Source: a virus. Taken from it: 22,306 nucleotides of DNA. Each line of letters begins with the position of its first letter. The first letter of the stretch is position 1. Positions 2,106 to 22,306 of the stretch are shown here, in pieces. Made by a program: the position numbers and the translations under genes. A model generated the notes under the pieces. The model saw only the letters and a list, made by a program, of their open reading frames with translations, ran no database searches and was not told the origin of the DNA. Where the stretch lies: positions 1 to 22,306 of IMG/VR virus record IMGVR_UViG_3300043427_000103. One strand, written 5' to 3'.

Positions 2106-2129
2106 ACCATCAAGAAATTGGGTAAAAAC

Positions 2130-3527
2130 ATGGCTATTTTCGACATTTTCAAGCGCAATAAAGACCAAAAAAACGAATCCAATACGCTATTTGGGCAATC
2201 TGCGCTAGGTAATAACATCGTTTATCAGGGCGATAATAAGAACCCTAATGTCAATACTCAGATTCTTTATGTAACCACAGGCGCAACCAATAACGCGGGT
2301 CGCCCCGTGGATATGTCATTGCTTACGCGCAATAGCACAATCATGGCTTGCGTTGCGGCAAAAGCCCGCGCCCTATCCCAATTGCCTATTCGCGTGGTTA
2401 GCCAATCGGAAGATGGTACTTATGTTGATGCCATTAAATCGCCGCTAGTTGGCGCACGGGATAAGGCTAAAGCCAAGCAAGTAGCAAACCTTTTGGCGCA
2501 ACCTAACCAATTCCAAAGTACCTATGAATTTTGGTATCAATGGCTTATGTGGTACGAACTTGCGGGCGAAGCATTTACCCTTTGGTGGAGAAAAGACCAA
2601 GAAAGCACAACGGAAACCCCGTTAGAAATGTACTTGCTTGATTCAACTTTGATTGCCGTAACAATCACCCCTGCGCGTTACCCATCGTATCGTTTAAGTA
2701 CGCCCGCTTACGGTTTTAACCGTGATAAGCCGCTGAACTTTAACCAAGTGATGCACATTAAGGAAATGAACTGGCAAGGTTCTGCGGGTTTTAACAAAGG
2801 CATTTTGGCGGCAGAACTGGTTTCGCTAGACCAAGATATTGACCTTTACGCAAACTACATCATGCAAAACGGCGCAAAGCCAAGCGGAATGTTTACTACC
2901 GAAAGTGTTATTCCTGATGGCAAATATAAGGAAATTGCCGCCCGCTTGAAAGAAGCATGGTCGGCAATGGTTTCTAGCCGCCCAAGCGACCCAAGCAAGG
3001 CGGGTCAGGGTATGTTGCTAGACCAAGGCATGAAGTACACCCCGTTAGATATGTTGACCCTACAGGATACCGATGCGGCTAAGTTAAAAGAACAAACCAT
3101 GAAACGGATTTGCGGTTTGTTTGGCGTTCCCGCGGCAATGATTGGCATCGGGGATTCTAAGTACAACAATACCCAAACAATGATGGATGAATTCTATAAA
3201 TCCACAATGTACCCAACTTTAATTAACATTCAGCAAAAATTAAAACAACATTTGTTTGTTGGCTACCCTAATTTGTGCATTGAGTTTGATACGCGCAATT
3301 TCTTAAAAGGTGCGCCATTAGACCAAATGAATTTTGCTACCGCGGGCGTTACAAACGGGATTATGACCCCTAACGAAGCGCGTGAATACTTGGGTATGCC
3401 CAATATTGATGGGGCAGATGAATTGATTGATAAGGGCGGGAAAGATAAACCGATTGTCGGAACATCCCCCCAAGATACGGGCGGGGGCGGTGGAAACCAA
3501 ACCCGCAAAATGAATATCGGCAAGTGA
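2130..3527 (+). CDS. Portal protein, HK97 family
   Basis: The portal forms the twelve-subunit ring at one capsid vertex through which DNA enters and to which the terminase and connectors bind. The product (465 residues from the ATG at 2130) starts MAIFDIFKRN, typical of HK97-family portals. Near residues 300-345 it carries the family's stem/crown signature: LLDQGMKYTPL, then DAAKLKEQTMKRICGLFGVP followed by AAMIG. The C-terminal tail is glycine-rich (residues about 445-456), with a poly-Gly run before a basic end. An in-frame TTG at 2118 would add four residues. I prefer ATG because no strong Shine-Dalgarno supports either and the ATG form matches the family. It follows TerL by 24 bp and precedes the protease, the standard head-gene order. 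Confidence 0.94.
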   Translation: MAIFDIFKRNKDQKNESNTLFGQSALGNNIVYQGDNKNPNVNTQILYVTTGATNNAGRPVDMSLLTRNSTIMACVAAKARALSQLPIRVVSQSEDGTYVDAIKSPLVGARDKAKAKQVANLLAQPNQFQSTYEFWYQWLMWYELAGEAFTLWWRKDQESTTETPLEMYLLDSTLIAVTITPARYPSYRLSTPAYGFNRDKPLNFNQVMHIKEMNWQGSAGFNKGILAAELVSLDQDIDLYANYIMQNGAKPSGMFTTESVIPDGKYKEIAARLKEAWSAMVSSRPSDPSKAGQGMLLDQGMKYTPLDMLTLQDTDAAKLKEQTMKRICGLFGVPAAMIGIGDSKYNNTQTMMDEFYKSTMYPTLINIQQKLKQHLFVGYPNLCIEFDTRNFLKGAPLDQMNFATAGVTNGIMTPNEAREYLGMPNIDGADELIDKGGKDKPIVGTSPQDTGGGGGNQTRKMNIGK

Positions 3528-3534
3528 AAATAAA

Positions 3535-3747
3535 TTGTCCACTATTTTTAAATTAGTGATAGCATCCTTGGCAACATATAAGCCAAATACAGAACCGCCC
3601 CCTAAAAGAGGGCGACCCCCTAAAACAATATATGACATCGACCGAACTAAAATCGATGAGGTAATCCATGACCGTAAAAAACCTGATGATGATTTGCGAA
3701 GCCAAATTAGTTTTGGAAAAGCAAGGCGCAATGACAGGAAAAATTGA
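3535..3747 (+). CDS. Small basic ORF between portal and protease, unknown function
   Basis: This 70-codon reading frame fills the 140-bp space between the portal stop and the protease start, then overlaps the protease by 80 bp in another frame. Its start would be TTG at 3535 with no clear ribosome binding site. The product is charged and proline-rich, with a PPPKRGRPPK segment (residues about 21-30) that resembles an AT-hook DNA-binding motif, followed by an Asp/Lys-rich region. I do not recognise a family. The ORF may be a real small gene, or chance coding around the leader of the protease gene. A Shine-Dalgarno for the protease (GAGGT, 3658-3662) lies inside it. Confidence 0.4.
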   Translation: MSTIFKLVIASLATYKPNTEPPPKRGRPPKTIYDIDRTKIDEVIHDRKKPDDDLRSQISFGKARRNDRKN

Positions 3748-4450
3748 AGCAACCGTAACTACTTGGGGTGCGCGTGAAGGCGCAGACGGTAGGCGGTTTA
3801 ATTATCAACCCGAAGGTTTTATGAAATGGGCAGAAGAATTTTCTGCATCAGGTCGCCCACTACCGATGTTTGTAAATCACGATGCGGATGCAATCCCCGT
3901 TGGTCAATGGGATGCGTTTGAGTTTGACGATACAGGAATGAAAGCCGAAGGGCGTTTGTTTGTCAATACTACGATGGGTTCTGACCTTTACAAAGTAATG
4001 CAAGAAAGCCCCGCTATGTTTGGCGGCGTTTCCGTTGGCGCATACGCCGAAGAATATTGCATGGTCGATGCTGAAGGCAACCCTTGCGAAGATTACGAAG
4101 AAGGTTATTTCCAAATCACTAAAGGCGGTTTGCGCGAAGTATCCGTAGTGATGTATCCCAACAACCCACAAGCAGAAGTTAGCAGATTGGAATATTTCCG
4201 ACCTGATGGTTCTGCGGATTTAAAAGTTTTAGAACAAGCCTTGCGTGAAGTTGGGCTATCTAAAAAGGATGCGGTAGCCGCCGCATCTACGTTCAAAAAA
4301 GTGTTAGAACTGCGCGATGTAGTTACAACGCCTATTGAAATTGCGCCTATTCTGAGTGAATCAGATGCGGAGGCTACCGAAGCGGAAATTCTCGCGGCTT
4401 TAGAAACGCGTGAACTTCTTAAAATTCTTGATACAAAAATTAAAGGTTAA
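3668..4450 (+). CDS. Prohead maturation protease, HK97 (S78) type
   Basis: This 260-residue serine protease is packaged in the prohead, removes the capsid delta/scaffold domain, then digests itself so that DNA can be packaged. The family catalytic His sits in PMFVNHDADAIPVGQW (H71) and the catalytic Ser in LREVSVVMYPNNPQAEV (S159). A GGVSVGAY strand at residues 119-126 is also typical. The C-terminal segment EQALREVGLSKKDAVAAAS matches the helix often found at the end of these proteases. The start at 3668 has a good GAGGT Shine-Dalgarno five bases upstream. An in-frame ATG at 3731 (residue 22) lies closer to the conserved beta strands and has AAGG upstream, so it is a credible alternative. 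The gene sits between portal and capsid, as expected. Confidence 0.9.
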   Translation: MTVKNLMMICEAKLVLEKQGAMTGKIEATVTTWGAREGADGRRFNYQPEGFMKWAEEFSASGRPLPMFVNHDADAIPVGQWDAFEFDDTGMKAEGRLFVNTTMGSDLYKVMQESPAMFGGVSVGAYAEEYCMVDAEGNPCEDYEEGYFQITKGGLREVSVVMYPNNPQAEVSRLEYFRPDGSADLKVLEQALREVGLSKKDAVAAASTFKKVLELRDVVTTPIEIAPILSESDAEATEAEILAALETRELLKILDTKIKG

Positions 4451-4453
4451 ATC

Positions 4454-5800
4454 ATGTCACAAGCAATCATTGAAAAATTGGATGCTATCGAAGCCAAGCA
4501 AAGCGAAAGCATTGCCGCCGTTGAAGCAAAAATTCCCGCCGCCGTTGAAGCAATCAAACTGGAAATGCAAGAAACCATTTCTGCTTTGGAAGCCAAAGTA
4601 GCATCTATTCAAGCCCCTGCAATCGTCAAGCCCGCTACATCCGTGCGCGGCGATGTAAACCGTTCTGTTAAAGAACAATTGGTTTCTTTCTACAAAAGCA
4701 ATGCCCGCGTAGAAAAAGAACTGCAAATTTTTGCAGACGAAAGCCAACGCGATGCGTATATGCGCGAGGCATCAGCATTGACAGGCTCAGGCAACAACCA
4801 AGGTGGTCGCACCGCTTATGACCCCGTGTTTGCCGCTTTGCGTTTGGCTAACCCCATGCGCGGTTTGTCACGCACCGTAGCAACCGATGGTTCTTCATAT
4901 CAATTTCGTGTCAAAACTGGTAATGCGGGTGCGGCATGGGGCTATGCGATTCAGAACAACGGCGATGCCACAACTGAAAATACAAGCATTTGGCAATTGG
5001 TTCTGCAAGACCTGAATGTTCAATTCCCAATCCGTACTGCGGCTTTGGATGATATTGATGGTTTGGAAGCCAATGTCGTTGACGATATGTTGATGGAGTT
5101 TTCGCAAGCCGAAGCCTTGTCAATGATTCAGAATAACGACCAAGCGGCACAATCAAGCACTAACCCTTACGGCGGCACAAATGGCTTGCGTGGCTTAGAC
5201 CAATACGCGGGTGCTAACGCTACCTATGCGGGTGGTACTTGCTCTACTGCGGCATTTGGAACAAGCGGTACGGGTTCTAATACTGGTTTGCATAGCCTTG
5301 CTACTTATGACCAAATTACCACTAACGCAAACACCGTTGGCGCAAACAACATTTCTTATGTTGACGTAATCAATACTATTTATGCTTTGCCACAACAGTA
5401 TTGGACACCTGACACTAAGTTTATGATTAGCCCAATTTTGTTGAACGCTATTCGCGCATTGCGTGATACAAACGGCGCACCAATCTTTAATCGTAACGAA
5501 GGTTTGTCGGTTGAAGGTATCGTAGGTAATTTGTTGGGCTTTGATGTTGTCGTTAACAAGTATTGCGATAACCCATCACAAGCAACTACTGGTTCTGCGG
5601 GTACAACTTCTTTGTATCCAATGTTCTTTGGTGATTTCACACGCGGTCACACAATCATTGACAGATTGAACATGATTATGCGCCGCTACGACCAAACCGC
5701 GCCGGGCTTTATCACATTCTTTGGTGAAAAGCGTTTGGCTACATCGGTTCGTGACCCTAACGCGTTGATTCGTTATCGTTCAACTGGTACTGCTACTTAA
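4454..5800 (+). CDS. Major capsid protein with N-terminal delta (scaffold) domain, HK97 fold
   Basis: The 448-residue protein builds the icosahedral shell. Residues 1 to about 55 form a Glu/Ala/Ile-rich predicted coiled coil (MSQAIIEKLDAIEAKQSES and following). This is the delta domain that serves as internal scaffold and is normally cut off by the neighbouring protease. From about residue 104 (REASALTGSGNNQGG) the sequence matches a phage HK97-fold capsid protein: the DPVFAALRLANPMRGLSR region, an SIWQL strand, NVVDDMLMEFSQAEALSMI helix, TNGLRGLD, and the C-terminal GFITFFGEKRLATSVRDP. An AAAGG Shine-Dalgarno lies seven bases before the ATG. It is followed directly by an intrinsic terminator, and then by a shorter paralog at 5859. 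The precise cleavage site cannot be read from sequence alone. Confidence 0.94.
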   Translation: MSQAIIEKLDAIEAKQSESIAAVEAKIPAAVEAIKLEMQETISALEAKVASIQAPAIVKPATSVRGDVNRSVKEQLVSFYKSNARVEKELQIFADESQRDAYMREASALTGSGNNQGGRTAYDPVFAALRLANPMRGLSRTVATDGSSYQFRVKTGNAGAAWGYAIQNNGDATTENTSIWQLVLQDLNVQFPIRTAALDDIDGLEANVVDDMLMEFSQAEALSMIQNNDQAAQSSTNPYGGTNGLRGLDQYAGANATYAGGTCSTAAFGTSGTGSNTGLHSLATYDQITTNANTVGANNISYVDVINTIYALPQQYWTPDTKFMISPILLNAIRALRDTNGAPIFNRNEGLSVEGIVGNLLGFDVVVNKYCDNPSQATTGSAGTTSLYPMFFGDFTRGHTIIDRLNMIMRRYDQTAPGFITFFGEKRLATSVRDPNALIRYRSTGTAT

Positions 5801-5813
5801 TTGCGTTGCCATT

Positions 5814-5843
5814 AGCGGGGGGCGAAAATCCCCCGCTTTTTTT
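5814..5843 (+). terminator. Rho-independent terminator between the two capsid genes
   Basis: A perfect 8-bp GC-rich inverted repeat, AGCGGGGG (5814-5821) and CCCCCGCT (5830-5837), encloses an 8-base loop and runs into seven T residues (5837-5843). It begins 13 bases after the stop of the major capsid gene and ends 15 bases before the start of the second capsid paralog. I found no other such structure in the window. Since no obvious promoter sits in the remaining 15 bases, it most likely acts as a partial terminator or mRNA 3' stabiliser, which would make the upstream capsid gene more abundant than the genes behind it. Confidence 0.88.
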
Positions 5844-5858
5844 AAACAGGAATTTAAA

Positions 5859-6875
5859 ATGTCTATCACCGAAAAAATCTTGAACGGAATCAAACAAGCC
5901 ATCACCGAAGGCGGCAAAGTAAACATCGACTTGCGCGAAGCAAGCGCAATTACTGGTTCGGGTTCGGGTGTCGGTGGTAATGTTGTTTTTGATGATGCGT
6001 TTGCGGCTTTGCGTCAAGCAAACCCTTTGCGCCAAGGCTCACGCCAAATTACAGTTACGGGTTCTGATGCCCAATTCGTTGCCAAAACTGGTAACGCCGC
6101 AAATTCTACAAACCCTTGGGGTTACACATTTACGCCAAATAGCGGTTCGCCTAATGTGAATACTTCTATTTGGCAATTGCCCGTGCGCGTATTGGTTGCA
6201 CAATTGCCAATCAGAACGGCGGTGCTAAGTGATGTTAATGGACTTGATGCAACGCTTGTTGAAGATTTGGCACTTGAGTTTGCACAACTTGAAGGTCAAT
6301 CAATGGTGCTTAATAGCGACCAAGCGGGTAGCGGCACTACATCAACTGGTGCTACTAATGGCTTGCGCGGTTTGGATATGTACGCTAGTGGTGCTACTAG
6401 TGCTTTCGGTTCTAGTGGTACGGCTATTACAAATGGCATACATACTATCGCTACGGTTAGTAATGGCGGCACTACGGTAACTTACAACAAAGTTGTAAAC
6501 ATGGCTAACGCGTTGCCCCCGCAATATTGGTCGCTAGATTCAACTGCATGGCACATTAGCCCCGCAATGATTCAAACATTGCGCCAGTTAAAAGATACCG
6601 CGGGCTTGCCTTTGTTCTTGGAACTAGGCGAAAAAGATGGTTGCGCAATTGGTCACATTTTTGGTTGGCCCGTTATTCCTAACGCATACCTTTCTACAGA
6701 TTTCCCAATCTACTTGGCAAACTGGAATCGCTTTTTGACAATCGGTGATACCGAACAAATGAGCATCCAAATGTTTGAACAAACACAGGCGGGTTTTGTG
6801 ACGATGTACGCAGAAAAAAGAATGGTAAGCACCGTACGCGACCCGTTCGCGGGCGTTCGTATGTCTGCCGCCTAA
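5859..6875 (+). CDS. Second HK97-fold capsid paralog lacking the delta domain
   Basis: The 338-residue product is a clear paralog of the capsid protein encoded at 4454-5800. Shared landmarks in the same order include REASA(L/I)TGSG, FAALR.ANP.R, KTGNA, NTSIWQL, PIRTA, NGLRGLD.YA, the ISP strand and GF.T..(G/A)EKR...(S/T)VRDP. By eye roughly half of aligned positions are identical in the first 150 residues of the shared part. It lacks the roughly 75-residue coiled-coil N-terminus: REASA begins at residue 26 here and at 104 in the first copy. It therefore looks like a capsid protein born near its mature end. AGGA lies seven bases before the ATG, but an intrinsic terminator sits just upstream. 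Possible roles are a minor shell subunit, a vertex protein, or a dispensable duplicate. The choice between these is inference. Confidence 0.85.
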   Translation: MSITEKILNGIKQAITEGGKVNIDLREASAITGSGSGVGGNVVFDDAFAALRQANPLRQGSRQITVTGSDAQFVAKTGNAANSTNPWGYTFTPNSGSPNVNTSIWQLPVRVLVAQLPIRTAVLSDVNGLDATLVEDLALEFAQLEGQSMVLNSDQAGSGTTSTGATNGLRGLDMYASGATSAFGSSGTAITNGIHTIATVSNGGTTVTYNKVVNMANALPPQYWSLDSTAWHISPAMIQTLRQLKDTAGLPLFLELGEKDGCAIGHIFGWPVIPNAYLSTDFPIYLANWNRFLTIGDTEQMSIQMFEQTQAGFVTMYAEKRMVSTVRDPFAGVRMSAA

Positions 6876-8356: not shown

Positions 8357-8851
8357 ATGGCACTACCAAATAAAATAATGGCGGGTTTTAGCGCGGCGTT
8401 GTATGCCCAATCGGGCGCGACACCTACCGCACTAACACTTACCCAACTTTCAACCCTTGGAAATGTTGCACCTATTGCAGTTATAGGTAATCTAATTCCA
8501 GTTGAAGCCGTACCCGCATTTGGGCAAGATGATGCCGTTGCTAGTTTCGGTGTAGCGGGTTCGCGTCAATCTGACAAAATCCCAACGCAATCCGCACCAA
8601 CATCACTTAGCGTAACTGCCGCATGGAATCCTAGCGACACAATGCTTTTGCTGATGCGCGGCGATGCCTATAGCGGCGTTATTGACCGTACTTTTGTAGT
8701 TAGTGCTACCGAAGGGTCAAACATCGTTTATTACGCCTTTAACGCCCGCGTAAGCCAGTTTACGATTGATTCAAGCCCTAGTGCTGAAGCCAAATGCAAT
8801 TTCACCATTCACCCCCGTGGAAATCTCTACGGTTGGTCTAACAACGCCTAA
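8357..8851 (+). CDS. Major tail tube protein, copy 1
   Basis: The 164-residue protein is one of two tandem paralogs that probably polymerise into the tail tube. A tube role is inferred from position (after the neck genes and before the G/T chaperones and tape measure), size, and a beta-rich sequence with a repeated strand-turn pattern. It shares with copy 2 two long identical blocks: 38 residues from PVEAVPAFGQDD to APTSLS, and 26 residues from RVSQFTIDSSPS to the C-terminal HPRGN. The N-terminal 35 residues are the most different part, with copy 2 carrying an extra Gly-rich loop. AAGGA lies nine bases before the ATG, a longer spacer than in copy 2. No Ig-like C-terminal decoration domain is present. 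Confidence 0.75.
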   Translation: MALPNKIMAGFSAALYAQSGATPTALTLTQLSTLGNVAPIAVIGNLIPVEAVPAFGQDDAVASFGVAGSRQSDKIPTQSAPTSLSVTAAWNPSDTMLLLMRGDAYSGVIDRTFVVSATEGSNIVYYAFNARVSQFTIDSSPSAEAKCNFTIHPRGNLYGWSNNA

Positions 8852-8860
8852 AGGAATATC

Positions 8861-9382
8861 ATGGCTATACCAAATAAAGTTTTAGCGGGTTTTAGCGCAT
8901 CGTTGTATATGCAAAGCGCGGCAACGCCTACGCCACTTACAACGGCAAACCTTTCCGTATGGACAGGACAAGTTACAACCATCGTAGGCACGGCGGCTAA
9001 CGGTACTGGCGGCGCGGGTGTTTTGTTGCCCGTGGAAGCCGTACCCGCGTTTGGTCAAGATGATGCGGTTGCATCTTTTGGCGTAGCGGGTTCACGCCAA
9101 AGCGATAAGATTCCTACGCAATCTGCGCCTACATCGTTAAGCATTACCGCGGCTTGGAATCCAAGCGATACCGCGTTATTGCAAATCCGCGCTGATGCCT
9201 ATAGCGGTACGGTTGACCGTACTTTTGTCGTTGCCGCGGTTGACGGTGCTAATACGGTTGCGTATGCGTTCAATGGTCGCGTTTCTCAATTCACAATTGA
9301 TTCAAGCCCAAGCGCAGAAGCAAAATGCAACTTTACAATTCATCCGAGGGGCAACCAATATGGTTGGTCTAATAACACATGA
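8861..9382 (+). CDS. Major tail tube protein, copy 2 (tandem paralog)
   Basis: The 173-residue product follows copy 1 after nine bases. It differs mainly in residues 20-55, where a loop (GTAANGTGGAG) is inserted, and matches copy 1 exactly in the 38-residue core block and in the 26-residue C-terminal block. In 32 codons of that core (AFGQDD to TSLS) I count 19 synonymous differences and no amino-acid change, so the duplication is old and both copies are held under strong purifying selection. AAAGGA lies five bases upstream of the ATG, the better-placed ribosome binding site of the two. The pair could form a mixed tube, or one copy could be used at the tip or neck end. That is inference. Confidence 0.75.
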   Translation: MAIPNKVLAGFSASLYMQSAATPTPLTTANLSVWTGQVTTIVGTAANGTGGAGVLLPVEAVPAFGQDDAVASFGVAGSRQSDKIPTQSAPTSLSITAAWNPSDTALLQIRADAYSGTVDRTFVVAAVDGANTVAYAFNGRVSQFTIDSSPSAEAKCNFTIHPRGNQYGWSNNT

Positions 9383-14865: not shown

Positions 14866-17800
14866 ATGGTTACAAGTTTAATTATAGGTTTAGAAGCAAT
14901 TGGCTTTTCTACGGCAATGGCAACCTTTGCCGTTAACTTTGCCGTTTCTTATGTTGTTACCCGTGCCTTTGCAGATAACCCCGAACAACAACAAGACATG
15001 GGCGTAAGGCAACAAGTACCGCCAAGCGCGGTTAACGCTATTCCTATTGTTTATGGCAACGCGTACATGGGCGGCACATTTGTTGATGCGGTGCTGACAA
15101 CCGACCAAAAAACTATGTACTATGTTTTGGCTATTTCAAGCATTAGCCCTAACGGGCAATTTGCTTTTGATACCGCAGATATGTACTACGGTGATAGAAA
15201 AATTACTTTTGATGGTTCAGATTTAACTAAAGTTGTTAGCCTTACCGATGAAGCGGGAAATGTAGATACAAAAATTAGCGGCAACCTTTACATCAATCTT
15301 TATACATCTACCGCGGGCGGTACTATTACATCCGCTAACGGCGCATCAGCACCTAGCACGGTTATGGGCGGTTCTGATATTGCCGTTGGTCAGCGTTGGA
15401 CAGGCACAAGGCAAATGAATGGTTTAGGCTTTGCCATTGTCAAACTAATTTATAACCGCGATGCTGATACGACACAATTACAACCTATCACATTTAAAGT
15501 AGCGCATACGCTAAACGGAACAGGCGTAGCCAAAGCGGGCGATGTTTGGTATGACTACATGACCAACGCGGTTTACGGCGGTGCGGTAGATGCGGCGTTT
15601 GTTAATAGCACAAGCGCAACCGCGTTAAATGCTTATGGCGACCAAATTATTACATTTACAAATAGTAGTGGCGTACCATCTACGCAACCGCGTTACCGAA
15701 TTAACGGCGTGTTAGATGCGGGGCAAACTGTATTAAGTAACATTGACCGCATAATTTCATCTTGCGATTCTTGGATGACCTACAACGCCGCGTTGGGTCA
15801 ATGGTCAATTGTTATTAACAAAGCAGAATCTACCGCGTATGCTTTTAATGACAACAACATTATTGGCGAAATTCGCGTTAGTGCAACCGACATTACAAGT
15901 TCAATTAATCAAGTTGAAGCGCGATTCCCGTTTAAAGAAAACCGCGACCAAGCCGCATTTGTAAACATTGAAACACCTAGCGGTTTACTGTATCCCAACG
16001 AACCCGTTAACAAGTATTCAGTTACTTACGACATGGTTAACGATTCGGTGCAAGCGCATTACCTTGCCAATCGTTTGTTGGAACAAGCCCGCGAAGATTT
16101 AATTGTTTCTTTTAGCACTACCTATTACGGAATTCAAGTAGATGCGGGCGATGTAGTTAGCGTTACCAATACTGATTACGGATGGGCAAGCAAACTATTC
16201 CGCGTAATGAAAGTTAACGAAGCATCATTACCCGATGGTTCATTGGGTGCTAAATTAGAACTTAGCGAATACAACGCACAAGTTTATGATGACCAAGACA
16301 TAACGCAATTTACGCCAATTCCAAATAGCGGTTTATCATCGCCCGTTTTCTTTTCATCATTAACCGCGCCAACGGCTACGGGTTTCCCTAGCGCGGTTGT
16401 TCCAAATATTAGCGTACAAGTTTTTATACCCGTTACGGGGCGCGTTACTTTTGTAAATCTTTTCTTTACAACAAGCGCAACGCCTACCGCATCGGATTGG
16501 AAATTACTTGCATCGGCAAATTCAAGCAATAGCCAACCTATTGGCAACAACTTTAACTATACTTTTACAAACAATATTATTAATACGGGAACGTATTATT
16601 TTGCCTACCTTGTTGGTAATGAAATTGGGCAATCTGCTTTAAGTACGGCAAGTAGCGCATTTGTTTGGAATCCGGTAGCCCCCGCGGGGCAAGCCGGTCC
16701 GCTTGTCGATATATCCGGATTTACCGCATTTAGCAAATCAAGCACGGGCGTTATTACGCCATCTTCGGTAACGCTTACGGCGGTTACGCAGAATGTTACA
16801 TCGCCTACATATGCATGGGCAATTACGGGATCAACGCCTACAACCGGCTCGGCATCTACCATTCTTATTACGCCCGATTCGGGGGCAACTAGCGTTACCG
16901 CTTCTTTAACTGTTAACGGTAGTAACCTAGCAAGCGCCATTACAAGAACCATAACAATGGCTATTGTTGATGATGGCGCAAACGGAACTACGGGCGTTCA
17001 AACGGCGCGCCCTACTGTTTTTCAATGGGCGCTATCAACGCCATCCATTAGCGGTACATCTACCTATACATGGGCAACCGGCGCATATACCGCCCCTAGC
17101 GGTTGGTCAACCTCTATTACTACCGCCCCAACCGCCGGCTATATTTTGTATGCGGCAACCGTTCCTATAACGGCATCGGCAACCGCAACAACAACAACGA
17201 TTAATTGGACAACGGCAAGTATTATTGTTTCGGGTTACGCGGGTACTAATGGAACAAATGGTACGGATGGAACAGATGGTACAAATGGTACGGATGGTAC
17301 GGATGGTACTAACGGCGCATCGGCAAGAATTATGTATGCGCGCATTGCAAGCAACCCAACGCCCGTATCGGGAACGGTAACGGTAGCCGGCGATAACCGC
17401 CCAACGGGTGCGCAAGCAAGCGCGGTATGGGGCGCGGCATTTAATGTTACTTGGTATGCAAATGATCCAAACCCATCAAGCAATGATTCTTTGTACCAAG
17501 CGGATGCCATCTACAACGGTACTTCTACCTTTTGGTCAACCCCCTACATTTCATCGCTAAAAGTTGGCGCGCTTTCCGCCGTATCTACTAATACCGGTAG
17601 CCTAACCGTTAGCGGAACATTCCAAGCAAATACCGCGGCAATTAGCGGTACTACGATGACGGGTTCGGGGGGGGTACTTTATTCAACCGGTAACTTTGCG
17701 TTTGGTAATCCAACAACTAACATTTCTTTTAACGGCACTCAAATGTCGCTAAACGGTAATGTTGTTGCTACCGGAAACATCAATGCTAATGCCGTAACAT

Positions 17801-18165
17801 TAACTTCTAGTGCTTTTACATCCGCAACATATTTAAACACTACAACCGCATATCAAGATGCACAAACATTATCAATAACAACTAACGGAAGCCAAGTTTA
17901 TGTTTCTTCATCCGGTAGCCCCGTTTCCGGTATTTATATAGATGGAGATACCCAAGGTTCGTTTAGTCCGCAATTTAGATTGGTTAGAGATTCAACCGTT
18001 TTAATGCAAGGCGGTTTTAACCCATCAATGTCTTATAGCGATACGCCATCAGCGGGAACTTATACTTATAGATTGCAAGTTCTTAGTCAAACATCGCAAG
18101 GCACTCTACAAGATTATGCAGGGATTTCTAATCGTTCATTATTTGCAATTGAGACAAAACGATGA
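14866..18165 (+). CDS. Tail tip attachment protein, gpJ-like hub with collagen-like C-terminal stretch
   Basis: The 1099-residue protein forms the central tail hub and probably carries receptor-binding parts. I take ATG 14866 (AGGGA five bases upstream) rather than the in-frame 14773, which lies inside the acetyltransferase gene. Residues about 35-520 resemble the gpJ/Phage-tail_3 hub: AVNAIPIVYGNAYMGGTFVD, WYDYMTNAVYGGAVD, SCDSWMTYNAALGQWSI, and GIQVDAGDVVSVT. A fibronectin-like domain follows (about 535-605). From about residue 603 the sequence changes style (see the CCGG finding), with immunoglobulin-like strands, then a collagen-like stretch of eight G-T-N/D triplets (residues 793-816), and a beta-rich C-terminus ending in LFAIETKR. 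The first 30 residues are hydrophobic. Its stop overlaps the next ATG by four bases. Confidence 0.88.
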   Translation: MVTSLIIGLEAIGFSTAMATFAVNFAVSYVVTRAFADNPEQQQDMGVRQQVPPSAVNAIPIVYGNAYMGGTFVDAVLTTDQKTMYYVLAISSISPNGQFAFDTADMYYGDRKITFDGSDLTKVVSLTDEAGNVDTKISGNLYINLYTSTAGGTITSANGASAPSTVMGGSDIAVGQRWTGTRQMNGLGFAIVKLIYNRDADTTQLQPITFKVAHTLNGTGVAKAGDVWYDYMTNAVYGGAVDAAFVNSTSATALNAYGDQIITFTNSSGVPSTQPRYRINGVLDAGQTVLSNIDRIISSCDSWMTYNAALGQWSIVINKAESTAYAFNDNNIIGEIRVSATDITSSINQVEARFPFKENRDQAAFVNIETPSGLLYPNEPVNKYSVTYDMVNDSVQAHYLANRLLEQAREDLIVSFSTTYYGIQVDAGDVVSVTNTDYGWASKLFRVMKVNEASLPDGSLGAKLELSEYNAQVYDDQDITQFTPIPNSGLSSPVFFSSLTAPTATGFPSAVVPNISVQVFIPVTGRVTFVNLFFTTSATPTASDWKLLASANSSNSQPIGNNFNYTFTNNIINTGTYYFAYLVGNEIGQSALSTASSAFVWNPVAPAGQAGPLVDISGFTAFSKSSTGVITPSSVTLTAVTQNVTSPTYAWAITGSTPTTGSASTILITPDSGATSVTASLTVNGSNLASAITRTITMAIVDDGANGTTGVQTARPTVFQWALSTPSISGTSTYTWATGAYTAPSGWSTSITTAPTAGYILYAATVPITASATATTTTINWTTASIIVSGYAGTNGTNGTDGTDGTNGTDGTDGTNGASARIMYARIASNPTPVSGTVTVAGDNRPTGAQASAVWGAAFNVTWYANDPNPSSNDSLYQADAIYNGTSTFWSTPYISSLKVGALSAVSTNTGSLTVSGTFQANTAAISGTTMTGSGGVLYSTGNFAFGNPTTNISFNGTQMSLNGNVVATGNINANAVTLTSSAFTSATYLNTTTAYQDAQTLSITTNGSQVYVSSSGSPVSGIYIDGDTQGSFSPQFRLVRDSTVLMQGGFNPSMSYSDTPSAGTYTYRLQVLSQTSQGTLQDYAGISNRSLFAIETKR
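17242..17313 (+). repeat. Nine-base tandem repeat encoding eight collagen-like G-T-N/D triplets
   Basis: Eight consecutive 9-bp units of the form GGT ACN AAY/GAT encode Gly-Thr-Asn or Gly-Thr-Asp. The Gly-x-y periodicity is that of collagen-like linkers seen in phage fibre proteins, and such units readily expand or contract by slippage. This stretch separates the Ig-like part of the tip protein from its C-terminal receptor-distal region. Confidence 0.85.
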
Positions 18166-18572
18166 GTTACACAATTTACAATCAAAATAGCGGACAAATT
18201 CTTAGAATTGTTCAAACAACTAATATTCAAGAGCAACTACAAGATGGCGAATCATACATTGATGGCGCAATTGATGATTCTGCTTATTACATTGAAAATG
18301 AATCGCCAATAGCAATACCGCCTAAACCTAGCCAATATTCAGTTTTTGATTTCACTACAAAGCAATGGGTTGAAAACGAAACAATGGCAATTTCTGATGT
18401 TCTTATTAAACGGCAAAGATTGTTGTACGCAAGCGATTGGACGCAGATACCGAACAACCCGCTAACCGCAGAACAACAAACGGCTTGGGCAACCTACCGG
18501 CAAGAACTACGCGATATACCGCAACAATCCGGCTACCCATTTAATGTTGTTTTTCCCGTTGCCCCAATTTAA
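18162..18572 (+). CDS. Tail fibre assembly chaperone (Phage_tail_APC type)
   Basis: The 136-residue product has the hallmark of proteins that fold or trimerise the adjacent tip or fibre protein: near residues 85-130, RQRLLYASDWTQIPNNPLT, EQQTAWATYRQELRDIP, QQSGYPFNVVFPVAP. This D-W-T-Q/x-(L/I)-P-(D/N), YRQ-x-LRDIP, GYP pattern is typical of the Phage_tail_APC family. The first 60 residues are a variable acidic region (QDGESYIDGAIDDSAYYIEN). It overlaps the gene upstream by four bases and is therefore co-translated with it, which fits a dedicated chaperone for that C-terminus. It is the last gene of the CCGG-rich island, supporting its joint inheritance with the tip domain. Confidence 0.85.
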   Translation: MSYTIYNQNSGQILRIVQTTNIQEQLQDGESYIDGAIDDSAYYIENESPIAIPPKPSQYSVFDFTTKQWVENETMAISDVLIKRQRLLYASDWTQIPNNPLTAEQQTAWATYRQELRDIPQQSGYPFNVVFPVAPI

Positions 18573-18657
18573 TTAAACGGCTAAAATTTAAACAAGATAA
18601 GATACCAATTCCCCGCGGGTACGCGGATGTTCGACCTATGTATAGGGAACGCTAAAC
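18573..18657 (+). promoter_or_regulatory. Intergenic gap with short GC hairpin, possible promoter
   Basis: This 85-bp gap is one of the longer spacers in the window. It holds a perfect 5-bp stem CCGCG (18613-18617) / CGCGG (18622-18626) with a 4-base loop and no T-run, so it does not look like a terminator. A TATGTATAG stretch near 18636-18645 resembles a -10 element, but no convincing -35 hexamer is placed upstream. It marks the boundary between the tip/chaperone module and the long fibre genes, and could carry a promoter for them. Confidence 0.25.
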
Positions 18658-19143
18658 ATGGCTTTATTTTCTAAGAATGTCATTACGCAAGTAAGCGGAT
18701 TTGACAACCCGCTAATTACGGGCGAATTGGTCTATAACCAACGATGGTATTGGAATATAACAATTCTTAATATCGCGGGTACGCCAGTTGACCTATCTAC
18801 GGCAACAATTACCGCGGATATTGCGCGTAGGCAAATTTCAAACTTGATTGATACCCGCAACGGGTTATCGTTTGATGTAGCCAACTACGCTACCGTTCCT
18901 ACGCCTATCAACCTAACGATTACCAATAAGGTAAACGCCGCGGGTTCTTTTACATTGGTAATTGATGATACGGCTTGGGGCTTAATTAACACCGACCCTC
19001 AACTAAAAATTGATGAACAAAACCCCGTTTGCTTTACGGGGAAAATTAAGATTTCATTTGCCGCCGCTTCTCCAACGCCCGCCGAAGATGACATTATCTT
19101 TTTAATGTTCTTGGTTCGTTCGGATGGTGTTACTGTACTTTAA
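18658..19143 (+). CDS. Putative fibre-associated beta-sandwich protein, unknown
   Basis: The 161-residue protein is mostly beta by composition. An N-terminal part (NPLITGELVYNQRWYWNITI, then LNIAGTPVDLSTATITADIA) has the G-x-P-x-D-L-S/T pattern of small Ig-like adaptor domains found at the start of baseplate and fibre-connecting proteins. A C-terminal part (AAGSFTLVIDDTAWGLINTD and KIKISFAAASPTPAEDDIIF) completes the fold. No family can be named with confidence. It begins after the tip/chaperone module and precedes the giant fibre gene by 12 bp, so it may link the fibre to the tail tip. It lacks CCGG sites, like the genes that follow it and unlike the preceding 1.9 kb. Confidence 0.5.
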   Translation: MALFSKNVITQVSGFDNPLITGELVYNQRWYWNITILNIAGTPVDLSTATITADIARRQISNLIDTRNGLSFDVANYATVPTPINLTITNKVNAAGSFTLVIDDTAWGLINTDPQLKIDEQNPVCFTGKIKISFAAASPTPAEDDIIFLMFLVRSDGVTVL

Positions 19144-19155
19144 GGGGATTTGAAA

Positions 19156-22100
19156 ATGGCTATTTCTAAAGTTGTTGTAGTTGACGGTAACAACCTTATT
19201 GTTCGCGTTGACAGGGGCGTTGCGGGTCGCGGCGTAACGGATGTTGAACCCGTTGTTATAGATGGTTCGTTGTACCTTATTTTTACTTTTTCTGATGGCA
19301 CTACCGACACGGTTGGCCCAATCAGCACAATTCAATATGTTGGAACATCGCCAATTGTTGTAAACGGTTCAACAATCAGTTTAACTACCGTTCCCGTTAA
19401 CTTAGGCGGTACGGGACAAGTTACCGCCAACGCGGGTTTTAACGCCCTTGCGCCTACGCAAACAGGCAATACAGGCAAGTACCTTAAAACTGATGGCACT
19501 AATTCCGCTTGGGATTTGCTAGACATTTCTACCGCCGATATTACGGGTACATTGCCCATCGTCAACGGCGGTACGGGGCAAACTACTGCTAACGCAAGTT
19601 TTAATGCGCTTGCCCCTAGCCAAACAACTAATACGGGAAAATATCTTAAAACCGATGGAACAAATACATCTTGGGATTTACTAGATATTTCTACCGCAGA
19701 TATTACTGGCGTATTGCCCCTTGCCAATGGTGGTACTGCATCATCTACTGCAAGCGGTGCGCGTACTAACTTAGGTTTAGGCACTATTGCTACACAAGAT
19801 GCAAGTAGCGTTGCTATCACGGGCGGTAGCATTACGGGGATTACTGACCTTGCCGTAGCCGATGGCGGTACTGGTGCTAGTAATGCCGCTGATGCACGAA
19901 CTAATTTGGGTTTAGGTACGATTTCTACACAAAACGCATCAAGCGTTTCTATTACTGGCGGCACTATTACAGGAATCACCGACCTTGCCGTTGCTGATGG
20001 CGGTACTGGTTCAAGCACCGCGGCGGGTGCAATGGTTAATCTATTGCCATCGTACACAGGCAACGCAAACAAACGCCTTGGTTTAGATGGCACGGCTACG
20101 GGTTTGGAATGGGTAACGGATGGTGGTGGTACGGTTACATCGGTTGATGTATCGGGCGGCACTACGGGTTTGTCCTTTAGCGGTGGGCCAGTTACCACAA
20201 GCGGCACAATCACACTAAGCGGCACATTAGATTTAGACAACGGCGGTACAGGCGCAACAACCGCGGCGGGCGCAAGAACTAACCTTAACGCCGCTGACCA
20301 AGCCTTAACGCTGACCGCGGGAACTGGTTTGTCGGGCGGCGGCGACCTTACGGCTAATCGTAGTTTCAGCATCACAAATACGGGCGTTACCGCGGCGGCT
20401 TATGGTGCGGCATCTAAAACGCTAACGGCAACGGTTAATGCACAAGGTCAACTAACTGTTTTAGCCGATACGCCTATTGCTATTACCAATACCCAAATTT
20501 CGGGGCTTGGTACTATGTCAACGCAAAACGCTAATGCGGTTGCGATAACGGGCGGCACAATTACTGGCATTACAGATTTGGCGGTTGCTGATGGCGGCAC
20601 GGGCGCAAGCGATGCGGCAGGGGCAAGAACAAACCTTAACGCGGCTAACCAAGCAACAACCATTACCGCGGGTACGGGGCTTTCGGGCGGCGGTGATTTA
20701 TCTGCTAACCGCACAATCGACATTGCCAATACAACGGTAACGGCGGGTGCATTTGGTTCTGCATCTAACACCCTTACGGCTACAGTAAATGCACAAGGTC
20801 AGTTAACCGCATTGGCGGCAACCCCAATTGCAATTGCAAATACTCAAATATCGGGTTTGGGTACGATGTCAACGCAAAATTCCAATGCCGTAACTATTAC
20901 GGGTGGAAGCATCACAGGCATTACAGACCTAGCCATTGCTGATGGCGGTACAGGCGCATCTAACGCCCCTGATGCGCGTTCTAATCTTGGCTTGGGTAGT
21001 GCGGCAGTATTGAACGCGGGCGTTGCTTTAGGCGTTGCTACGCTAGATGCGGGCGGTACTGTACCTTTGTCGCAAATCCCTGCAAGTATTCAGGGCGGCG
21101 TAAGTTACCAAGGCGCATGGAACGCATCAACCAATACGCCTACGCTTGTATCTAGCGTTGGTAGCAAAGGTTATTATTATGTTGTTTCCGTTGCGGGCAA
21201 TACAAACCTTAACGGTGTAACCGATTGGTTGGTAGGCGATTGGGCAATCTACAACGGTACGGCATGGGAAAAGATTGATAACACCGACCAAGTGGCAAGC
21301 GTTAACGGCTACACGGGCGTTGTTGTTTTGTCTAACACCGATGTTGGCGCACCGCCTACAAGCCTAACAATCAGCGCGGGAACGGGTTTAAGTGGTGGTG
21401 GTAGCCTAGCCGCCAACCGCACCCTTTCAATCGCTAATACAACCGTTACCGCCGCGCCTTATGGAACTGCAAGCGCAGTACCTACATTTACAGTAAATGG
21501 TCAGGGTCAACTAACCGCGGCATCTGATGTAACGATTGCTATTGCCAATACGCAAGTATCAGGGCTTGGCACAATGTCAACCCAAAACGCAAATAGCGTT
21601 GCCATCACAGGCGGTAGCATCACGGGCATTACCGATTTGGCTATTGCTGATGGTGGAACGGGTGCAAGCACCGCCCCTGATGCGCGAACAAATCTTGGGC
21701 TTGGCACTATTGCAACGCAAGATGCAAGTTCTGTAGCCATTACAGGCGGTTCAATTAACGGTACAACCATTGGCGCAACTACGCCATCAACAGTAACGGG
21801 AACAACGGTTACGGCAACAACTTTGGTTGTTAACGATAACGCTACGCTTGGTTCATCAAATACTGATACTGTTACTTTTAATGGTCGAGTAAATTCAGAT
21901 TTAGAACCCGCTACTGACAACGCTTATGACTTGGGTAGAACAGGTCACGAGTGGCGTAATTTGTATTTGACGGGTACAGGCAACATTGACAATTTGATTG
22001 CTGATACTGCGGATATAAATGGCGGCACTATTGATGCAACTGCTATCGGTAGCACAACGCCATCATCGGGTGCGTTTACAACTGTTACCGCATCTACCGC

Positions 22101-22306
22101 AATTGGCGTTGCTTCAGGCGGTACGGGCGTTACAACTTCTACGGGTTCGGGTTCGGTAGTTCTATCTACAAGCCCAACATTGATTACGCCTTTGCTTGGT
22201 ACGCCTACATCCGCTACTTTAACTAACGCAACCGGCTTGCCTTTAACAACCGGCGTAACGGGTACTTTGCCTATCGCTAATGGCGGTACGGGGCAAACAA
22301 CGGCTA
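19156..22306 (+). CDS. Giant repeat-built tail fibre protein (3' end outside the window)
   Basis: The reading frame opens at ATG 19156 (AAGGGG about eight bases upstream) and stays open to the last base, encoding at least 1050 residues. The N-terminus (residues 1-70, MAISKVVVVDGNNLIVRVDR and SDGTTDTVGPISTI) resembles tail-fibre attachment starts. The rest is repeats: two 54-residue units, 45-residue ADGGTGASNA...RTNLGLG units, and 117-residue units each beginning (T/S)AGTGLSGGG. The GGTG(A/Q)-type segments match known phage tail repeats (PTR family). A distinct module near residues 676-720 (SKGYYYVVSVAGNTNLNGV, WLVGDWAIYNGTAWEKIDNT) and one near 920 (AYDLGRTGHEWRNLYLTG) are common fibre modules. 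No stop and no C-terminal receptor-binding domain or peptidase_S74 is seen within the window. Confidence 0.85.
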   Translation, partial: MAISKVVVVDGNNLIVRVDRGVAGRGVTDVEPVVIDGSLYLIFTFSDGTTDTVGPISTIQYVGTSPIVVNGSTISLTTVPVNLGGTGQVTANAGFNALAPTQTGNTGKYLKTDGTNSAWDLLDISTADITGTLPIVNGGTGQTTANASFNALAPSQTTNTGKYLKTDGTNTSWDLLDISTADITGVLPLANGGTASSTASGARTNLGLGTIATQDASSVAITGGSITGITDLAVADGGTGASNAADARTNLGLGTISTQNASSVSITGGTITGITDLAVADGGTGSSTAAGAMVNLLPSYTGNANKRLGLDGTATGLEWVTDGGGTVTSVDVSGGTTGLSFSGGPVTTSGTITLSGTLDLDNGGTGATTAAGARTNLNAADQALTLTAGTGLSGGGDLTANRSFSITNTGVTAAAYGAASKTLTATVNAQGQLTVLADTPIAITNTQISGLGTMSTQNANAVAITGGTITGITDLAVADGGTGASDAAGARTNLNAANQATTITAGTGLSGGGDLSANRTIDIANTTVTAGAFGSASNTLTATVNAQGQLTALAATPIAIANTQISGLGTMSTQNSNAVTITGGSITGITDLAIADGGTGASNAPDARSNLGLGSAAVLNAGVALGVATLDAGGTVPLSQIPASIQGGVSYQGAWNASTNTPTLVSSVGSKGYYYVVSVAGNTNLNGVTDWLVGDWAIYNGTAWEKIDNTDQVASVNGYTGVVVLSNTDVGAPPTSLTISAGTGLSGGGSLAANRTLSIANTTVTAAPYGTASAVPTFTVNGQGQLTAASDVTIAIANTQVSGLGTMSTQNANSVAITGGSITGITDLAIADGGTGASTAPDARTNLGLGTIATQDASSVAITGGSINGTTIGATTPSTVTGTTVTATTLVVNDNATLGSSNTDTVTFNGRVNSDLEPATDNAYDLGRTGHEWRNLYLTGTGNIDNLIADTADINGGTIDATAIGSTTPSSGAFTTVTASTAIGVASGGTGVTTSTGSGSVVLSTSPTLITPLLGTPTSATLTNATGLPLTTGVTGTLPIANGGTGQTTA
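19405..19728 (+). repeat. Two tandem 162-bp units in the fibre gene
   Basis: Units 19405-19566 and 19567-19728 each encode 54 residues beginning GGTGQ and containing FNALAP, NTGKYLKTDGTN, WDLLDISTADITG. They differ at only a few residues but many synonymous bases. Confidence 0.85.
19723..20037 (+). repeat. 45-residue PTR-like repeats in the fibre gene
   Basis: Units of 135 bp at 19723-19857 and 19858-19992 encode A(N/D)GGT, RTNLGLGTI, TQ(D/N)ASSV, ITGG, ITGITDLAV. A third, degenerate copy starts at 19993 and breaks off after about 15 residues. Confidence 0.8.
20314..21723 (+). repeat. Three 117-residue modules in the fibre gene
   Basis: Modules of 351 bp start at 20314, 20665 and 21373 with (T/S)AGTGLSGGG and continue through AT or FTVN.QGQLT, ISGLGTMSTQN (VSGLG in the third) and ITGITDLA(V/I)ADGGTGAS. 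The last two are separated by a roughly 360-bp non-repeat module near 21016-21372. Confidence 0.8.

Follow-up and report, generated by a model that had tools for sequence, protein, structure and literature searches.

Introduction

Viruses of prokaryotes show depletion of short restriction recognition sites beyond expectation (Rusinov et al. 2018, PMC6286503), and in plasmids restriction avoidance has been read as a record of immune pressure (PMC10359461). In Alteromonas phages, a tail fibre and its cognate chaperone are common to distantly related phages (PMC10579305). Here, we describe a phage contig that resembles the viruses and the Alteromonas phages in these respects: the 22,306-base virus record IMGVR_UViG_3300043427_000103, analysed over its whole length and hereafter called the window. 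In a genome that avoids these and many other sites, an island of CCGG and GATC covers the end of a J-like tail-tip gene and the chaperone gene that follows it. We consider it very probable that a restriction-purged tailed phage had its tail-tip end replaced from a related phage less restricted at CCGG and GATC.

The window carries a terminase gene, two capsid-family genes, and genes for a lambda-type tape measure protein, the J-like tail tip, the chaperone, and a fibre. A search of 50,697 phage records gave no near DNA match to it. Among cultured phages, Methylophilaceae phage P19250A (KX815270; terminase 61% and capsid 60% identical) is closest, and the gene order of its structural half is similar by annotation. 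A second virus record, IMGVR_UViG_3300044701_000242 (37,335 bases; loci L163 and L164, hereafter G001), is identical to the first 22,146 bases of the window and supplies the remaining genome. At positions 22147–22306, within the fibre gene, 20 of the final 160 positions differ from G001, and two CCGG sites come with this divergent end, perhaps a variant or a chimera formed at the end of the contig. Relatives were gathered from a viral collection, as the best 80 of 172 by terminase and the best 80 of 131 by tail-tip end.

An island of CCGG and GATC sites in a genome that avoids them

An exact count gives 17 CCGG sites in the window, at 5702, 16672, 16694, 16715, 16844, 17078, 17135, 17387, 17594, 17687, 17771, 17912, 17927, 18497, 18529, 22232, and 22250. 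An earlier interpretation, made by eye and hereafter called the sequence-only reading, had described one site before 16672, 14 in an island, and two at the window end, with GATC only at 16829 and 17464, both in the island. The exact count bears out both patterns, and the CCGG positions listed at that time are right except for two, each off by 10 (17397 for 17387 and 18539 for 18529). Equally exact was its count of 38 Thr-Gly codon pairs in the fibre gene between 19156 and 22231, none of them written with ACC. Up to the window end there are 42 such pairs, and the two with ACC correspond by position to the CCGG sites at 22232 and 22250. These two sites belong to the final 160 bases, the part that diverges from G001, and we give them no weight.

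The counts were compared with two nulls of 500 synonymous-codon shuffles each. Three CCGG sites lie outside the island, where the two nulls predict 41.7 or 45.6, and GATC is absent there against 57.0 or 56.2. Inside the island, there are 14 CCGG against 5.6 or 6.4 and 2 GATC against 2.0 or 2.8. A codon-shuffled null had been proposed together with the island, on the understanding that an equal contrast under it would count against the idea. The null does not reproduce the contrast between the island and its surroundings and leaves it unexplained, so this objection falls away; the proposed selection against CCGG and GATC stands as avoidance at the DNA level. Moreover, synonymous avoidance is possible at each of the 14 CCGG and 2 GATC sites of the island. 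In G001, 14 of the 15 CCGG sites fall in the insert (hypergeometric p = 3e-16, with one-mismatch near-sites as opportunities), as do two of the three GATC sites, a result that is weak on its own (p = 0.009).

The depletion outside the island is motif-specific. Among 16 palindromes, the observed-to-expected ratio is 0 for AGCT and GATC, 0.07 for CCGG, 0.10 for ACGT, and 0.13 for GGCC; it is intermediate for TCGA (0.32), TATA (0.60), and ATAT (0.65), and near expectation for TGCA (0.77), AATT (0.87), CATG (0.88), CTAG, GTAC, and TTAA (1.01–1.06), GCGC (1.29), and CGCG (1.45). Codon shuffling predicts 53 AGCT, 61 ACGT, and 53 GGCC outside the island, where 0, 6, and 7 are found. All three are absent from the island as well, with 5.6, 6.8, and 3.9 expected there. 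RGCGCY occurs in the window only at 16933 and 17028, both inside the island.

Relatedness switches at both ends of the island

Base-by-base comparison with the relatives L084, L091, and L095, together with a nearest-relative profile in 100-base steps, places the left crossover in a zone of at most 16618–16669. L084 last differs at 16617, and once inside the zone at 16659; L091 and L095 have no differences from 16594 to 16669 and first differ at 16670. The zone stops three bases before the first CCGG of the island. The imported segment itself (16670–18610, plus strand, about 1.95 kb) contains 14 CCGG, 2 GATC, and 2 RGCGCY, and no GGCC, AGCT, or ACGT. On the right, the same three relatives give a crossover zone of at most 18611–18662, which is intergenic and conserved. 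The last difference from L091 and L095 is at 18610, and the switch probably lies before 18633, because L084 first differs there (then at 18654 and 18663). A hairpin at this conserved junction is weak and no better than chance (z = -1.1).

Along G001, the nearest relatives at 15.8–16.6 kb are L091, L095, G002, G004, and their kin, at 97–100%. Just past 16669, identity to these recipient relatives drops from 97% to 73–77% per 100 bases. From 16.6 to 17.7 kb the nearest relative is L084, at 87–100% (seven of the 11 steps reach 95% or more, and in two a second locus is equally close). Between 17.7 and 18.5 kb no relative exceeds 82%, and at 18500 L084 reaches 99%. The L091/L095-type lineage is nearest again from 18.7 to 19.8 kb (92–100%), followed by L146, which is CCGG-free where covered. 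The same-contig rows L083 and L003 were omitted from this profile, and L142 and L015 from that of G005; the profile of G009 includes its same-contig locus L115, at 100%. An inner piece of the import (17784–18344, plus strand) finds no relative above 82% (68–82% per 100 bases); the donor was L084-like, not L084 itself.

L084, which is genome G003, has 12 of the 14 island CCGG sites at the same places, as well as both GATC sites; the other two CCGG sites fall where it does not align. The recipient-type loci L089, L090, L091, L092, and L095 align to four of the CCGG sites and one GATC site, and lack the motif at all of them. The replaced allele, 1847 bases long, contains neither CCGG nor GATC in L091, L095, and L092, and one CCGG and no GATC in L089, compared with 14 CCGG in the 1953 bases of the window interval. 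Over the 3.4 kb of homology between L084 and the window to the left of the junction, none of the 9 CCGG and 7 GATC sites of L084 has a counterpart in the window; the codon triplets compared there are synonymous at 7 of the 9 CCGG and 4 of the 7 GATC sites. These alignments show relatedness switching twice, each time in a common stretch of at most some 50 bases, around sites that the donor-like lineage shares and the replaced alleles nearly lack.

The sequence-only reading had the island arriving from a source without the CCGG and GATC pressure. Comparison inside and outside the island agrees with the import: relatedness switches from CCGG-poor relatives to L084 and back. CCGG and GATC are indeed relaxed in the source, but the source was not free of restriction pressure, because L084 lacks GGCC, AGCT, and CCNGG altogether. 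In G003a, the donor-like segment or contig, observed and expected counts are 39/23 for CCGG, 16/22 for GATC, 8/9 for RGCGCY, 0/17 for GGCC, 0/20 for AGCT, and 0/25 for ACGT, which is the profile of the island. Among the five strongest 4-base motifs, the donor-like lineage is relaxed for CCGG and GATC only. Avoidance and import, the two parts of that reading, are therefore both supported, and avoidance extends to many more motifs than these two.

Genes of the imported segment

The left junction lies within the gene for the J-like tail-tip protein (14866–18165, plus strand; 1100 codons including the stop, with the start chosen by us). The recipient part of J contains a Phage-tail_3 domain (PF13550), a match obtained with the protein read from 14833, and the residues from about 602 on, comprising a Gly-Thr-Asn/Asp repeat and the C-terminal tip, are imported. 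The tail assembly chaperone gene follows at 18162–18572 on the plus strand (PF16778, Phage_tail_APC; 73 bits against a curated cut-off of 26.6). In L091, L095, and L092, the interval is filled by one longer J frame, and no frame of 80 codons was found after J on the plus strand, the strand examined. Since the window has a J end and a chaperone gene in place of the longer frame, the allele replacement also added a gene. The segment sits after PF13550 and contains the PF16778 gene, and we predict that it forms the receptor-binding end. The fibre protein gene (19156–22305, plus strand) runs off the window; its nearest relatives, in a profile extending to 20.0 kb, are CCGG-poor, except in the last 160 bases.

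Restriction-site barcodes across relatives

We tested 182 motifs in G001 without the insert, using 25 shuffles each; 125 of them have an expectation of at least 10. Fifty of these 125 fall below 0.2 of expectation, although the motifs overlap and represent far fewer independent specificities. Observed and expected counts include GCWGC 0/80, GGNNCC 0/75, CGWCG 0/37, CASTG 1/40, RGCGCY 0/29, and CCNGG 1/30. On both strands, motifs without an assigned enzyme are missing as well (CCAGA 0/39, CCAGC 0/47, CGTCC 0/26, and GAGCG 0/30), and TCAGC and CCAGT are common. The profile varies among relatives: CASTG is 58/67 and CCAGA 55/74 in G017, ACGT is 183/165 and CGWCG 62/66 in G036, and CCGG is 204/157 in G020. 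Moreover, the avoided contexts are enzyme-like, as in G024, with CCWGG at 2/67 but CCSGG at 54/33, and in G011, with YGGCCR at 0/33 but GGCC at 56/116. Donor and recipient both avoid GGCC, AGCT, ACGT, and CCNGG, and the segments therefore bear a readable restriction “barcode”.

Site clusters were then scanned in 20 contigs of at least 30 kb, out of 39 fetched, with 17 motifs (CTAG not among them) in 127 genome–motif tests. The scan returned 36 clusters with a log-likelihood ratio (LLR) of at least 10, and 29 of them are centred no more than 8 kb after the J junction. All 17 clusters with an LLR of at least 20 lie in the region after J, and 12 of these are GGCC or GGWCC; in G021, J lies at the contig end and the region label is invalid. 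We attach no p-value to this concentration, since the contigs are not independent by descent and that region was itself the query for many loci. The remaining five clusters of this strength come from four genomes, namely CCGG in G001 and G009, ACAGC and CASTG in G005, and CCAGC in G006. In G005, a stretch after J at about 21.7–24.4 kb (L169/L170, window orientation) holds all 17 ACAGC and all 10 CASTG of the contig. This stretch has weak partial relatives at most, and the flanking steps match known relatives at 92–100%. By these comparisons, the G005 insert is a second clean import, marked by other motifs. The second half of the CCGG stretch in G009 has no relatives.

The GGCC and GGWCC clusters (G007, G009, G010, G011, G020, G023, G024, G025, G034, and G037) were considered as imports and not counted; most of these proteomes are Gly-Pro-rich. 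Such clusters are partly forced, because Gly-Pro codons always contain GGNCC. After J, each of G007, G009–G011, G020, G023, G034, and G037 writes Gly-Pro mainly with one of the two unavoidable sites, GGCC in some phages and GGWCC in others. Unlike the region after J in these Gly-Pro-bearing relatives, the J repeat of the window uses Gly-Thr-Asn/Asp. An earlier scan of 59 contigs with 16 palindromes found strong clusters away from the J region in contigs otherwise poor in the motif: CTAG at 29938–30533 in G024 (LLR 26), AGCT at 456–3312 in L150 (LLR 33), and AGCT at 1061–6774 in G038 (LLR 20.5).

Weighing the explanations

The stretch might never have been imported, with sites accumulating in place on a CCGG-avoiding backbone where the protein constrains the sequence or selection is relaxed. 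Coding rich in Thr-Gly, Ala-Gly, and Ser-Gly does increase the opportunity for CCGG, and the GGCC and GGWCC clusters in the relatives' fibres are similarly part-forced by Gly-Pro. However, each island CCGG has 11–20 synonymous escapes, the codon null predicts about 6 sites and not 14, and the switch in relatedness at both ends (97% to 73–77% past 16669), with sites in common with L084, refutes accumulation in place, to which we give almost no credence. An assembly chimera of two phages from the same sample is also very improbable: although the contigs are metagenomic and the last 160 bases of the window diverge from G001, G001, which is another IMG/VR record, has these junctions too, the J frame continues open across the left one, and no single source among the relatives accounts for the insert, a mosaic in its own right.

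A different doubt concerns the cause of the depletion, which could be a mutational bias of the host, mismatch repair, or a different defence that reads motifs. The very long avoided list, with 50 of 125 overlapping motifs below 0.2 and with CCAGA, CCAGC, and CGTCC lacking an assigned enzyme, would suit such a cause. Still, many depleted motifs match classical Type II sites, avoidance contrasts sharply among close relatives, as restriction–modification repertoires would, and the contexts in G024 (CCWGG versus CCSGG) and G011 (YGGCCR versus GGCC) are enzyme-like. We therefore regard a cause other than restriction as unlikely.

Several observations weigh against the replacement of a restriction-purged tail tip by a donor's. 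The relatives do not include the direct donor, since L084 does not align over the inner 560 bp and is 87–93% identical in parts. The GATC count of the island does not exceed expectation and is weak alone, and L089 retains one CCGG, so that purging is not absolute. The junctions have at most one independent witness: the window and G001 show no difference along 22 kb, and a single population may be the source of both. The clusters of G024, L150, and G038 sit elsewhere, so that tail-module import does not account for every cluster. The change of receptor is suggested by position and homology, and the structure model of the J end is poor (mean pLDDT 55). Finally, an HpaII-type enzyme gene was present in 1 of 185 bacterial genomes searched around a doubtful anchor, which is uninformative on the real host.

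In the replacement that we favour, a tailed phage would have lost almost all sites read by a large number of Type II restriction enzymes, CCGG and GATC included. The tail-tip end, that is, the C-terminal part of J and the following chaperone gene, would have been replaced by that of a related phage through a double crossover, the donor's hosts having probably imposed weaker CCGG and GATC restriction. In a co-infected cell, the phage may have carried out the exchange with an ERF annealing protein and a YqaJ-type exonuclease of its own. G001 encodes both domains (PF04404, E = 1e-14; PF09588, E = 3e-30), and an annealing protein with an exonuclease is the usual means of exchange at short homologies. 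The replacement would change receptor specificity. Restriction as the cause of the motif loss is suggested by motif identity and by turnover between relatives. The 14 sites remain unpurged; the event may be recent, or the present host may lack the enzyme.

No convincing methyltransferase was seen in G001, in a motif search of six genomes and a Pfam search of 8 window and 10 G001 right-arm proteins. One of the six genomes, G007 (L173/L174), has a 341-codon frame with an SPPY motif, a possible DNA methyltransferase. A terminase search of genome contigs returned three matches at 59–61%, in contigs of metagenome-assembled genomes labelled Nitrosotalea, Gammaproteobacteria, and Holosporales, which would be mis-binned viral contigs. 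A lake metaepigenome paper describes a thaumarchaeote with GATC and AGCT methylation, which is insufficient for a host call, and the word restriction is absent from the main text of a paper on Methylophilaceae genomic islands.

Pro-Gly depletion under CCNGG avoidance

Because the codons CCN GGN always spell CCNGG, Pro-Gly cannot be encoded without a CCNGG site. In our own open frames of at least 60 codons, which are not curated genes, Pro-Gly occurs once in the window against 21 expected and is the most depleted of 274 dipeptides with an expectation of at least 8 (log10 p -7.9). In G001 it occurs once against 32 expected, the most depleted of 320 such dipeptides (log10 p -12.3). It is also the most depleted dipeptide in G002, G011, and G012, and not in G024 or P19250A. 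The single occurrence in the window, CCGGGC at 5702–5707 on the plus strand, encodes Pro-Gly at residue 417 of the major capsid protein; it is the sole CCNGG of the window and, the final 160 bases apart, its sole CCGG outside the import. This Pro-Gly is kept in P19250A and in every relative aligned there (G013 did not align).

Across 61 contigs no shorter than 9 kb, the depletion of Pro-Gly follows CCNGG with a Spearman coefficient of 0.97, which is partly built in, each Pro-Gly being a site. Codon usage, aligned proteins, and individual genomes give evidence that is less circular. Phages that avoid only CCWGG and tolerate CCSGG write the proline of Pro-Gly as CCC or CCG: 22/22 in G021, 30/31 in G023, 28/29 in G024, 19/19 in G025, 24/24 in G026, 15/15 in L062, 19/19 in G041, and 25/28 in G034. 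Elsewhere in these phages CCA and CCT dominate, except in G041. In P19250A, where CCGG is depleted (11/27), the proline is CCA or CCT in 22 of 22 cases. The CCWGG avoiders keep Pro-Gly to different degrees (observed/expected 19/21.8 in G041, 29/40 in G024, 22/31 in G021, 19/38 in G025, and 24/63 in G026), and codon choice is therefore not the whole story. In G012, CCGG is tolerated, yet there is no CCNGG, and Pro-Gly is 0/22. An analogous constraint is seen in G001, where the first codon of Ala-Ala is GCA or GCT in 0 of 119 cases, as GCWGC avoidance demands.

Aligned proteins give the same picture. Among 684 Pro-Gly cells of 13 tolerant relatives compared with six avoiders, 55 are kept (8%), the cells not being independent; in the same alignments, Pro not before Gly is kept at 81% and Gly not after Pro at 80%. 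At two terminase positions, AG/QG is found in 36 loci whose CCNGG density is 0–3.2 per 10 kb, and PG/PG in 38 loci whose density is 9.6–79, in a set where several loci can belong to the same contig. The direction of loss is clear at few sites: two or more of four tolerant relatives have Pro-Gly at 11 sites, and the outgroup P19250A shares it at 3 of these, including the conserved capsid site.

In reference phages, Pro-Gly is observed and expected at 44/37.7 in lambda, 36/32.3 in HK97, 17/31.7 in T3, 8/21.4 in TP901-1, 7/30.3 in T7, 1/10.3 in sk1, and 1/12.0 in c2. CCNGG, against a crude CC × GG expectation, is at 185/164, 154/124, 57/119, 12/36, 11/110, 3/22, and 3/23 in the same order. Lactococci possess a CCNGG enzyme, ScrFI. 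A parallel claim of Gly-Pro depletion was dropped: Gly-Pro is low in lambda (15/37.7) and T7 (11/30.3) as well. Searches of an open-access library aimed at the effect listed no report of dipeptide loss through restriction, at the level of titles and the starts of abstracts, subscription literature being mostly outside this scope.

We consider it likely that restriction removes words from phage proteins, with CCNGG pressure stripping Pro-Gly nearly proteome-wide and sparing the irreplaceable capsid residue 417. Together with the segment barcodes, this would make the genome a log of the restriction regimes that each module has met.

Other features of the window

Two adjacent capsid-family genes (PF05065) lie at 4454–5800 and 5859–6875, as if by tandem duplication, and the capsid query matches two places in P19250A too. 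Downstream of this pair, two adjacent small genes at 8357–8851 and 8861–9382 are similar by eye, again as if duplicated in tandem. No tRNA genes were found in the window or in nine fetched pieces of sequence.

Comparison with known systems

Read along the genome, avoidance gives one exchange a source, since segments keep the barcode of former hosts. The frequency with which host-range genes cross restriction barriers, and the speed of site purging, thereby become measurable from sequence. If the Pro-Gly effect is true, bacterial DNA defence dictates amino-acid sequence across a viral proteome, which is testable on any phage collection and has a built-in control in the relatives that avoid only CCWGG and alter the proline codon instead.

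P19250A has an avoidance profile of its own (GGCC 0/47, ACGT 0/20, and GTAC 10/67 observed/expected). Unlike the window, with a GC content of 44–45%, it has a GC content of 35%, tolerates GATC and AGCT, and has 22 Pro-Gly against 36 expected. In contrast to the avoidance described for prokaryotic viruses (PMC6286503), the avoided set is long here and differs between close relatives and within one genome; recombination, horizontal acquisition, mosaicism, and islands are not part of the vocabulary of that paper's main text. The plasmid study (PMC10359461) works with whole-element averages, and the word recombination is absent from its main text; in the present case the record is resolved along a single genome and indicates where a segment came from. 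Unlike in the Alteromonas phages (PMC10579305), the origin of the exchanged part is marked by restriction sites, only the C-terminal part of J was replaced, and a chaperone gene was gained. Restriction avoidance and tail-module exchange are each already known; the broader gain lies in the segment-level barcode and the Pro-Gly effect.

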